Assembly (NCBI GenBank): GCA_950097265.1
Contig: CATNDJ010000019.1
Location: 2,163-34,347, forward strand
DNA length: 32,185 nt
Direction of reading: 5' to 3'
From: an uncultured Oscillibacter sp.
GTDB taxonomy: Bacteria > Bacillota > Clostridia > Oscillospirales > Oscillospiraceae
Of the stretch, positions 23,081-31,697 are shown piece after piece. The translations under genes were made by a program, and so were the position numbers. Under the pieces are notes generated by a model. It saw only the letters and a list, made by a program, of their open reading frames with translations. It did no database searches and was not told where the DNA came from. Position 1 is the stretch's first letter, and each line of letters begins with the position of its first letter.

Positions 23081-23521
23081 TCAATCCTCCAAAGCCCGAG
23101 CCAGCCCGTGCCACAGCTTTTCCATGCCGTCCACCAGGGCGTGGAGCTCTTCCTTTGAAAAAAGACCAAAGGCGTCCAGCTCCATCTTCCGCATGGCCCG
23201 GCCCAGCTTCCGGCCGAATTTCCGGCCCTCTTCCGTCAAAAGCACGATCCGGCTGCGCCGGTCGCCCTCGGCAATGCTGCGGGTGACCAGGCCCCTTCGC
23301 TCCAGACTGTCCACCACGCTGGTCACCGTCTGCCGGGAGAGGTATAATTCCCGGCTCAGGTCGTTCTGGGTCATGGGCGTCCGGTTTTTGTAGAGCAGCG
23401 TAATGACGTCCATGATATTGGAGGTGACTCCATATGTGGCGGCAATTTTGTCATAGGCCGCCTCAATGCCGTTCCAGCTTTTATAGTACCGGTCAAACAG
23501 GCCGCTGTCTGGTCGTTCCAT
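23081..23521 (-). CDS. MarR-family transcriptional regulator
   Basis: A 146-residue winged-helix regulator of normal length. The recognition region reads LSRELYLSRQTVTSVVDSLE, and the wing GLVTRSIAEGDRRSRIVLLT has the conserved D-R-R-S-R. The start ATG 23521 has GAGGATG upstream. It is divergent from the acyl-CoA dehydrogenase operon, with its own TTGACA promoter at 23614-23642 and palindromes near the operon promoter, so it probably represses or senses for that operon. MarR proteins often bind CoA thioesters or aromatic acids; a CoA-ester ligand made by the operon would be a natural inducer here, by inference. Confidence 0.93.
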   Translation of the reverse strand: MERPDSGLFDRYYKSWNGIEAAYDKIAATYGVTSNIMDVITLLYKNRTPMTQNDLSRELYLSRQTVTSVVDSLERRGLVTRSIAEGDRRSRIVLLTEEGRKFGRKLGRAMRKMELDAFGLFSKEELHALVDGMEKLWHGLARALED

Positions 23522-23613
23522 GATTCGTCATCCTCTTTTCCTCGATCTGCGGGGTCTGCGGGGCGCTTACGGACGCGTCGCCCTCTCAGAGATAAAACAG
23601 ATACTTTTTTACT

Positions 23614-23642
23614 ATTTTATCGCCATTCTGTTCCTGTGTCAA
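23614..23642 (-). promoter_or_regulatory. Sigma-70 promoter of the MarR gene
   Basis: The minus strand has consensus TTGACA, 17 bases, then TAAAAT, giving a leader of about 85 bases. A 7-bp inverted repeat (GATAAAA at 23591-23597, TTTTATC at 23615-23621) overlaps the -10 and may be an autoregulatory site. Confidence 0.8.
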
Positions 23643-23748
23643 TAGGTGTGCAAAATATGGAAAATTCCGCGCCTCTATCTCGAATGCACAAAAAGGGAAA
23701 GCCGATTCTGTCTATTCATACGAAGTGCGTTATTTCTGAAAAAATCCC

Positions 23749-23776
23749 TTGACTTTTCCTTGGCGGCGGCTATAAT
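23749..23776 (+). promoter_or_regulatory. Promoter of the acyl-CoA dehydrogenase operon
   Basis: TTGACT, a 16-base spacer and consensus TATAAT lie 80 bases upstream of the first gene. This is among the strongest promoter sequences in the window. It serves at least the first three genes. Confidence 0.88.
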
Positions 23777-29988: not shown

Positions 29989-30023
29989 GTGCAGTGAATC
30001 ACCGGGAAGCCCGGTAAAATAAA

Positions 30024-30063
30024 CGCAAACAGGTATGCGGGGATTCCCGCATACCTATTTGCG
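30024..30063 (+). other. Long hairpin just before the GroEL ribosome site
   Basis: An 18-bp stem with one mismatch (30024-30041 and 30046-30063) and a 4-base loop ends 4 bases before the GAAGGAG site. No T-run follows. It is not a CIRCE element. It may be a weak terminator, an RNA stabiliser, or a translation-control structure. Confidence 0.75.
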
Positions 30064-30083
30064 GTTGAAGGAGATACGGTAAC

Positions 30084-31697
30084 ATGGCAAGAGATCTGTA
30101 CTACGGCGCGGACGCGCGGAAAAAGCTCCAGGCGGGCGTGGACCAATTGGCGGACACGGTGAAAATCACCCTGGGGCCCAAGGGACGGAATGTCATGACG
30201 GCCCAGCCCTCCGGTACGCCCCTGATTACCAACGACGGCGCCGCCGTCACAAAGGGCTTCCAGCTGAGCGACATCGCGGAGGACCTGGGGGTCCAGATGC
30301 TGAAGCAGGTGGCCAAGAACCTCAGCGACGCGGCGGGCGACGGTTCCACCACCGCCGTGGTCCTGGCCCAGGCCATGGTCCGGGAGGGCATGCGGAACGT
30401 GGCGGCGGGAGCCAGCCCGGTGCTGCTCCGCAAGGGCATCCAGGGAGCCGTGGAAGCCGCCCTGGAGGCCATTGACGAAGGCTCCTTCCAGATCGAGAAG
30501 CGGGAAGACGTGGTCCGAGTGGCCACTGCCTCCTGCGGTGATGAGGCCCTGGGCGAAATGATCGCCGAGGCTCTGGAGAAGGTGGGGCGGGACGGCGTCA
30601 TTACCGTGGGCGAGTCCAGGACCCTCCACACCACGCTGGAGGTAGTGACGGGCACCCAGTTCGACAAGGGCTACCTCTCTCCGGACCTGGTGAGCGACCA
30701 CGGGAAGATGGAGAGCGTGATGGAAAAGCCCTACATCCTCTTTACGGACAAGAAGATTGAGGCGCTGAAGGACGTGCTGCCCCTGATGGACCAGGCGGCG
30801 CAGCGAAAGGCTCCCCTGCTCATCGTGGCGGAGGACGTTTCTGGCGAGGCTCTGAAGGCCCTGATTATCAACAAGCTCAAGGGAACCATGGACGTCATGG
30901 CGGTCCGGGCCCCGGGCTTCGGAGAGCGGAAAAAGGCTCTGGTGGACGACATCGCCCTGCTGACCGGCGCGGTGGTCGTCCGGGAAGAGGAGGGCTTTGA
31001 GCTGGAGAAGGCCACCCTGGACCTGCTGGGCCGGGCGGAAAAGGTGACAGTGACCAAGGACCGGACCTTGATTGAAGGCGGCGCGGGGGACCCCGCCGCC
31101 GTCGCGGAGCGCGTGGAGATGCTCCGGCGGATGCTGGCCGCGGCCAAGGACGAGTTCGCGGTGGACCGGGCCAAGGAGCGGCTGGGCAAGCTGGCCTCCG
31201 GCGTGGCGGTGCTCCGGGTGGGCGCGGCCACTGAGGTGGAGCTGAAGGAGGAAAAGCGCAAGGCGGAGGACGCCCTGAGCGCCATGCGGGCCGCCGTAGC
31301 GGAAGGCGTGGTCCCCGGCGGCGGGACGGCGTACTGCGGCGCGGTTTCCGCAGTGGAGGCGTACATGGAAGTGCTCTCCGGCGAGGAGAAGACCGGCGCG
31401 CAGATCGTGCGGGAGGCCCTGAAGGCGCCTTTGATGCAGATTGCGGAAAACGCCGGGTTCAGCGGCGATGTGGCGATAGCCGAGGCGCTCAAGAGAGGGA
31501 AGGGCGTGGGCCTCGACGTGCGGACGGGGGACTATGCCTCCATGCTGGATGCGGGCGTCATCGACTCGGCGAAGGTGACGAAGCTGGCCCTGGAAAACGC
31601 CGCGTCCATGGCGGCTGCGCTGCTGACCACGGAAGCGGACGTGGTGGATCCCCACGACGAAGCCTGGCTGCGGGCCCAGGGGGGAGCGGGGCTTTAA
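30084..31697 (+). CDS. Orphan GroEL-type chaperonin paralog
   Basis: A 537-residue group I chaperonin. It has [13 protein letters not shown], the ATPase motif AGDGSTT (Asp86, Ser where most have Thr) and the GVVPGGG segment after [11 protein letters not shown], so the ATP cycle should work. The C-terminus ends [13 protein letters not shown] and lacks the Gly-Gly-Met tail of housekeeping GroEL. There is no groES before it and no CIRCE element, and it sits last in a metabolic operon after a transporter. Extra chaperonins dedicated to one enzyme are known, such as MimG for propane monooxygenase folding in mycobacteria. A client within this operon is the most likely, such as the dehydrogenase or CoA transferases. 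The start ATG 30084 follows GAAGGAG. Confidence 0.93.

Follow-up and report, generated by a model that had tools for sequence, protein, structure and literature searches.

Genes of the locus

The stretch of DNA analysed here—32,185 nt of an uncultured Oscillibacter sp. (C19:2163-34347, hereafter the window)—belongs to a draft genome of 2.49 Mb that is 91.5% complete, and carries at positions 23081-31697 an operon that we attribute to the conversion of gamma-butyrobetaine to trimethylamine (the bbu, or gbu, cluster), together with a GroEL paralogue of its own. All eight genes are open and stand in the order given in the initial annotation, with the MarR gene divergent, and the named Pfam domain of each scores above its cut-off. 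The genes are as follows.

23081-23521, minus strand: divergent MarR-family regulator (Pfam MarR_2, 2.1e-14), a candidate dedicated repressor
23857-25035, plus strand: bbuA, probable gamma-butyrobetainyl-CoA trimethylamine-lyase of the acyl-CoA dehydrogenase fold (91% identical to the copy of Emergencia timonensis SN18, L005)
25153-26331, plus strand: bbuB (CoAT1), class III CoA transferase-like partner with Glu at the catalytic Asp position (Pfam PF02515; alignment to CaiB D169)
26347-27549, plus strand: bbuC (CoAT2), class III CoA transferase, probably the catalytic subunit, with the Asp retained (Pfam PF02515; alignment to CaiB D169)
27634-27909, plus strand: bbuD, 2x[4Fe-4S] ferredoxin (Fer4_7, 5.2e-13)
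27906-28319, plus strand: bbuF, 4HBT hotdog thioesterase (4HBT_2, 6.2e-14)
28375-29988, plus strand: bbuE, BCCT transporter (PF02028, 2.8e-109; 73% identical to the E. timonensis copy)
30084-31697, plus strand: bbu-linked GroEL paralogue without the GGM tail (NCBIfam GroEL, 632 bits; clade support 100/100)

The names bbuB and bbuC were assigned to CoAT1 and CoAT2 by gene order. The best start of bbuF is the ATG at 27906, which overlaps the stop codon of bbuD, as the GTG at 27792 in the list of open reading frames seems too long. The linked GroEL passes the NCBIfam equivalog cut-off for GroEL (632 vs 582 bits). In the window no Rfam family reaches its gathering score, and no tRNA or tmRNA gene was found.

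Assignment to the gamma-butyrobetaine cluster

Gamma-butyrobetaine is made from the carnitine of red meat, and trimethylamine is tied to cardiovascular risk; the correct naming of the operon therefore matters. The bbu cluster is regarded as one of the main anaerobic gut routes from dietary carnitine to trimethylamine (PMC8364193, PMC10989800). The published cluster has six genes, including both CoA transferases, the ferredoxin gene bbuD, the thioesterase gene bbuF and the BCCT transporter, and a BbuA is recognised by more than 70% identity to the E. timonensis protein (PMC8364193). In a scan of named genomes, the window dehydrogenase shares 91% identity with the enzyme of E. timonensis SN18, 93% with that of Agathobaculum desmolans and 90% with that of Eubacterium minutum, and beside its gene lie two class III CoA transferases, a di-[4Fe-4S] ferredoxin, a BCCT transporter and a thioesterase. 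Strains of these three species have been demonstrated to convert gamma-butyrobetaine to trimethylamine, and both the CoA transfer by BbuBC and the elimination by BbuA were shown in E. timonensis (PMC8364193). The family assignment of the cluster is strong, and we are highly confident that the operon is the bbu/gbu cluster in a variant with its own GroEL. It is thus a described system and not an undescribed pathway, and the genome is one more bbu carrier. Our analysis covers gene content, orthology, chaperonin phylogeny and motifs, from which we infer all function in this organism, the substrate, the folding role and the operator included.

The initial annotation had proposed a possibly undescribed pathway variant that imports a betaine-like acid, similar to but distinct from the known substrates, converts it to a CoA ester and then reduces it, oxidises it or subjects it to C–N elimination. 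The import of a betaine and its CoA ester hold good and C–N elimination is the probable outcome, but the distinct acid has to be given up. Nor is the variant undescribed, as bbuD and bbuF are part of the published six-gene cluster and a linked groEL-like gene is on record (PMC8364193, PMC10653785). A pathway that borrows the bbu layout for some other zwitterionic acid, such as valerobetaine or aminovalerate, is extremely unlikely: substrate specificity is unreadable from sequence alone, and BbuA relatives of 64-71% identity in proteobacteria occur in other gene sets, but the window BbuA is 90-93% identical to the copies of strains with a demonstrated conversion of gamma-butyrobetaine to trimethylamine, and the known BbuB/C enzymes are selective, since their activation of carnitine and of gamma-aminobutyrate (GABA) was undetectable in vitro (PMC8364193).

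The phylogeny of the dehydrogenase, which the initial annotation had named as part of its refuting test, points the same way. In a BbuA tree built by a quick method, the window enzyme falls with the BbuA proteins of proven trimethylamine-making strains; the outgroup consists of CaiA and the second dehydrogenase of the own genome, with no proven beta-oxidation enzyme among them. E. timonensis adjoins a set formed by the window and Butyricicoccaceae, and inside this set lie also E. minutum and a Lachnospiraceae contig (L027). The tree includes 13 of the 14 bbu rows (L034 was not entered), and L013 and L024 were dropped because of a stop in the translated match. An identity as a fatty-acid beta-oxidation dehydrogenase was rejected, as the FadE-type NCBIfam models all score far under their cut-offs.

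How close is the operon to the carnitine (cai) operon, to which the initial annotation had likened it? The E. coli cai operon (NC_000913.3) shares the transferase, transporter and flavoenzyme superfamilies and the substrate class with the window, and CaiB/CaiT-like families are indeed present in our operon, in favour of a reversible interconversion of carnitine, crotonobetaine and gamma-butyrobetaine with a CaiA-type reduction. However, the dehydrogenase is only 27% identical to E. coli CaiA, and all scores stay below the family cut-offs (CaiA, 163 vs 540 bits; carnitine CoA-transferase, 102 and 146 vs 413 bits; CaiT, 306 vs 541 bits). None of the eight genes is a relative of CaiC, CaiD or CaiE, and the E. 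coli stretch shown has no chaperonin gene. In addition, E. coli cai performs a reduction and not a C–N elimination, with which the product names of NC_000913.3 agree. A cai-like system has practically no chance of being the right description, and the operon is not a cai variant.

The bbu cluster of E. timonensis SN18, in contrast, contains all six genes, with identities of 91% for BbuA, 78% and 74% for the CoA transferases, 73% for the BCCT transporter, 69% for the thioesterase and 52% for the ferredoxin. It differs in that the thioesterase gene follows the BCCT gene there, while it precedes it in the window, and neither a GroEL nor a MarR relative turned up at a distance of up to 10 kb from the cluster. 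The gbu locus of A. desmolans agrees with the window in all eight genes and their order; its divergent MarR is 70%, its metabolic genes are 62-93% and its linked GroEL is 62% identical to those of the window, although its host probably belongs to another family.

The homologous loci also keep the CoA transferases and the transporter together, as the initial annotation's hypothesis demanded. Both transferases and the BCCT gene are retained in 12 of the 13 clostridial loci that carry this dehydrogenase (window not counted), and in the thirteenth, L027, the contig ends inside the first transferase; the gene arrangement is not due to chance. The full gene set in the window order, MarR and GroEL included, is found in five loci (L003, L004, L006, L007 and L034), and it is in these 5 of the 13 that the divergent MarR gene occurs, its product 61-72% identical to the window's. 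A GroEL lies within the fetched flanks of seven loci—downstream as in the window in five, upstream in L008 and L012—and three loci, L010, L011 and the cut-off L027, yielded no thioesterase. Among 394 genomes drawn from the order, six carry bbuA (E 1e-150 or better; 3 of 168 genera), and it was not found in G313, the sole listed congener; among 391 genomes drawn from the class, the own genome is the only carrier. In G047 and G348, some 5 kb separate bbuA from the gene of the linked-type GroEL, both being on one strand as in the window.

Two of these loci deserve separate mention. In E. minutum (L008, CP016202, 12427-16138), an insertion of about 2.5 kb splits bbuC; it contains masked bases and a transposase-like frame of 482 aa and has no Rfam match. 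As the strain is nevertheless reported active, this is assembly or strain variation. Clostridium aminobutyricum DSM 2634 (L009), the classic GABA fermenter, has a complete bbu cluster with no GroEL in the fetched flanks, and in PMC8364193 the species appears in the reference list only.

Which of the two CoA transferase proteins is catalytic? Both are required, and their catalytic roles were left open in the published work (PMC8364193). At the position of CaiB D169, the catalytic Asp is present in CoAT2 in all 13 cases (window and 12 loci) and in CoAT1 in none, where Glu takes its place in 12 and Ser in the Epulopiscium copy. The simplest reading of this pattern is that CoAT2 (BbuC) would be the catalytic subunit and CoAT1 (BbuB) its partner, though the Glu of CoAT1 could still act. 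Other two-subunit class III transferases are likewise made of one catalytic subunit and one partner. Retention of the Asp in CoAT2 only thus agrees with a heteromer, without demonstrating one.

The operon-linked GroEL

The initial annotation had assigned the chaperonin to the operon, and rightly so: a groEL-like gene lies beside gbu in A. desmolans, E. minutum and Clostridia UC5.1-1D1 (PMC10653785). In the same work, Escherichia carrying gbuABCE produced trimethylamine at 18 °C, but at 37 °C only when E. timonensis groES/groEL was added, while five E. coli chaperone plasmids gave no rescue (data not shown in that paper; PMC10653785). The folding need has accordingly been demonstrated, by others, with E. 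timonensis GroES/GroEL only.

The own genome encodes a second, housekeeping GroEL (G000:C21), which is 51-52% identical to the linked copy and adjoins the sole groES found. Beside this groES lies a perfect CIRCE (controlling inverted repeat of chaperone expression), and none occurs in the window with up to three mismatches. In a GroEL tree of 76 rows (fragments L103 and L104 excluded; 28 of the 120 listed database proteins hand-picked), 29 rows form one clade with support 100/100. Seven of these are proven to be bbu-linked (the window, L003, L004, L006, L007, L034 and G047), and G348, outside the tree, is an eighth carrier of the linked type. A GroEL of 88% identity (P0124) bears the label Oscillibacter sp., so that the host is likely to belong to the Oscillospiraceae. 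The GGM tail is absent from all 29 clade rows vs present in 42 of the 43 housekeeping rows, and a C-terminal DPx(D/T)Ex(W/Y)L-type motif occurs in 25 of the 29 vs 0 of the 43. Four tail-less proteins of the same clade (P0181, P0186, P0194 and P0205; 57%) are without a located host or context in a class-wide search with P0194.

Where does the linked GroEL come from? In a tree of 53 rows rooted with E. coli GroEL, the linked clade nests in a group (100/99) of Anaerovoracaceae-type GroELs; the genomes with family code f27 are presumably members of the Anaerovoracaceae. Its nearest neighbours are P0206, the linked copy of E. minutum and the E. timonensis GroEL (forks 98/88, 92/88 and 94/99). With groupings chosen after the first tree, the approximately unbiased (AU) test rejects a clade made up of the Anaerovoracaceae-type GroELs only (p 0.004) and the Epulopiscium linked copy as a member of the linked clade (p 0.0003), while membership of the E. 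minutum copy is possible (p 0.079). In this Epulopiscium locus (L012, 3102-4706), a fast-evolving GroEL, not of the tail-less clade, is encoded directly upstream of bbuA, possibly as an independent recruitment.

A duplicate of the host housekeeping GroEL that landed beside the operon, with a general stress role, would account for the presence of two copies of 51-52% identity in the own genome, and the linked GroELs are fast-evolving, with long branches. However, uniting the linked copies and the housekeeping GroELs of the Oscillospirales in a tree costs 147 log units and is rejected by the AU test (p 4e-6). The 6 of 394 genomes that carry the linked-type GroEL (E 1e-175 or better) are also those that carry bbuA, and the linked gene has no CIRCE. 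Such a duplicate is very unlikely, and the trees support an origin of the chaperonin outside the hosts' own GroEL. The partial agreement of the GroEL trees with the BbuA tree favours a joint transfer of operon and chaperonin, which would have come out of an Emergencia-like lineage. This reading departs from PMC10989800, where bbu trees follow housekeeping genes. The housekeeping GroELs of the window genome and E. timonensis are 64% identical and the bbu proteins 52-91%, and such identity values alone are insufficient to settle transfer.

The linked-type and housekeeping GroELs differ consistently (85% or more per set) at 13 positions, 11 of which lie between residues 197 and 370, a region that we take to be mostly the apical domain. 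The window GroEL keeps D52, D87, D398 and D495, presumably the ATPase residues in GroEL numbering. The atypical type I chaperonins provide a parallel, as they too are extra GroELs with the GGM tail absent or altered and without their own groES, some acquired by horizontal transfer (PMC5904260). Unlike the linked GroEL, they show in the excerpt of that paper no tie to one metabolic operon of the bbu kind.

Candidate control elements and a model of the locus

The non-coding features of the locus are the following.

23614-23642, minus strand: marR promoter-like site (TTGACA-17-TAAAAT; consensus scan only)
23749-23776, plus strand: operon promoter-like site (TTGACT-16-TATAAT, 11/12), with the same layout in L003, L004, L006, L007 and L034
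23785-23829, plus strand: three tandem 15-bp repeats (~CCGAnnnCGGACWAA), a candidate operator right after the -10 hexamer (leave-one-out position weight matrix, z=11.4, 0/500 shuffles)
30024-30063, plus strand: covarying hairpin between bbuE and groEL, conserved in six loci
31735-31768, no strand assigned: stem-loop with a short T run after groEL, a possible operon terminator (direct reading; its loop exceeds the limit of the scan)

A single palindrome was rejected as the MarR operator, as the per-locus lists share none, which drew attention to the 15-bp direct repeats. Each of the six distinct loci with a MarR gene (the window and the five above) has the array past the -10 hexamer, with leave-one-out z values of 9.1-11.5 and 0/500 shuffles in every case; the array of L137 is identical to that of L006 and was not counted as independent. 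The consensus was first spotted by eye in the tested loci, a bias addressed by the leave-one-out procedure and by a consensus-free periodicity test, which gave 0/200 shuffles in 6/6 loci. None of the nine loci without a MarR match has the array (L005, L008, L009, L010, L011, L012, L026, L027 and G047), although the contig of L026 extends only 709 bp upstream and could end short of a MarR gene. Within the draft genome of the window, the two-unit repeat pattern is confined to the operon promoter. The 15-bp repeats are thus a candidate MarR operator, and MarR would be their reader. A 15-bp self-similarity in L010 (39/45, 0/200 shuffles) is unrelated, its motif score being equalled by 34/500 shuffles.

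The hairpin is found at the same place in the window, L003, L004, L007, L034 and G047. Across these six sequences, from which the structure was itself derived, 97.2% of the pair cells are standard and 5 of the 12 pairs vary on both sides (shuffled mean 1.4, 0/500); a control for further pair types is weaker, being reached by 25/500 shuffles. The G-U exchanges argue for an RNA structure rather than a DNA palindrome. A plain terminator can be dismissed, as the plus strand has no T run behind the hairpin. The role of the hairpin could, as a guess, be mRNA processing or the setting of the groEL level.

Based on these features, we propose the following model for the locus.

Uptake and activation: BbuE would import gamma-butyrobetaine, and a BbuB/BbuC heteromer, probably with BbuC as the catalytic subunit, would transfer the CoA of acetyl-CoA or another acyl-CoA onto it.

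Elimination: The flavoenzyme BbuA would eliminate trimethylamine in a redox-neutral manner, and the remaining crotonyl-CoA would enter butyrate-type metabolism. Helper roles may fall to BbuD and BbuF.

Folding: The linked GroEL is predicted to fold BbuA, and perhaps its partners too. It would probably work with the single housekeeping GroES, because the genome, 91.5% complete, yielded only one groES.

Control: MarR is the likely repressor, and may act at the 15-bp repeats just past the promoter.

How might such an arrangement have arisen? Because foreign GroELs would fold BbuA poorly, a GroEL copy of an Emergencia-like donor may have moved together with bbu. Freed from heat-shock control and put under the MarR switch of the operon, it would have lost the GGM tail and changed mainly in the apical, client-binding domain, to become a one-client GroEL that borrows the GroES of its host. 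We hold this captured, client-specialised chaperonin tentatively, as a possibility with somewhat less than an even chance. A metabolic operon would then seemingly have taken its own chaperonin along from one family to another, and the failed rescue by the E. coli chaperones (PMC10653785) could be explained in this way.

Several observations weigh against the model of the locus given above. No GroEL lies in the fetched flanks of 6 of the 13 loci, two of which (L026 and L027) are short contigs, and 22 of the 29 tail-less rows are database proteins without a seen neighbourhood, some of them near-identical to linked rows. The linked GroEL of E. minutum retains the GGM tail and stands outside the clade, as does that of Epulopiscium, which has no such tail; the tail-less clade is therefore not the sole solution. 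Some linked-type GroELs, though not that of the window, have lost D398 (6/29) or D52 (15/29, mostly to Glu), which is not what one would expect of a simple ATP-driven folding machine. As for control, MarR proteins usually bind a palindrome and not direct repeats, the carrier G047 has the GroEL and the hairpin without MarR and the array, so that MarR is dispensable for the system, and the hairpin is absent in L006/L140.

As far as the literature was surveyed, the origin of the GroEL clade, the CIRCE only at the housekeeping groES, the threefold 15-bp repeat, the covarying hairpin and the Asp in CoAT2 only are new, and the putative operator, hairpin function and division of labour between the transferases would be new and testable. 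In titles and abstract openings of the open-licence literature, we found no report on a catalytic aspartate of BbuB/BbuC, on MarR with the gamma-butyrobetaine pathway or on a dedicated or horizontally acquired GroEL for bbu/gbu, and the words MarR, GGM, operator, CIRCE, hairpin and horizontal are all absent from PMC10653785. Our analysis adds a pointer to the catalytic subunit, a question left open in PMC8364193, as well as a candidate operator and regulator.

Beyond the clostridial clusters, BbuA relatives of 64-71% identity occur in proteobacteria, marine ones among them, and in a few further bacteria (L013-L028 and L038, the clostridial L026 and L027 excepted), and those that are non-clostridial form a separate branch set in the BbuA tree. 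Their conserved neighbours are an NDP-forming acyl-CoA ligase, an enoyl-CoA hydratase, an SDR, a hexapeptide protein, a distant BCCT (25-31%) and an AraC-type regulator; the ligase, hydratase, SDR and BCCT often stand there instead of bbuBC. These loci showed no bbuB-like gene, and L019, L023 and L025 contain weak CoAT2 matches (24-37%).

The remainder of the window holds further gene groups. On the minus strand, 4722-11838 encodes myo-inositol catabolism (iolD, 848 bits against a cut-off of 715; iolC, 365 against 300), together with a class II aldolase, a sugar-type ABC permease, a TIM-barrel protein and a GFO/IDH/MocA oxidoreductase, and 12164-13126 (minus strand) encodes a 3-hydroxyacyl-CoA dehydrogenase-like protein far under every NCBIfam cut-off. 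The region 14136-22982 contains a LeuC-like large subunit (LEU2, 611.3 vs a cut-off of 610.7), a LeuD/DmdB-family small subunit, a fused TRAP permease, a methylisocitrate-lyase relative below the family cut-off, a PrpR-type sigma-54 activator and a 385-aa lipoprotein that resembles a TAXI binding protein by eye, with no NCBIfam match at 1e-15. These genes may serve to import a branched di- or tricarboxylate and to cleave it.

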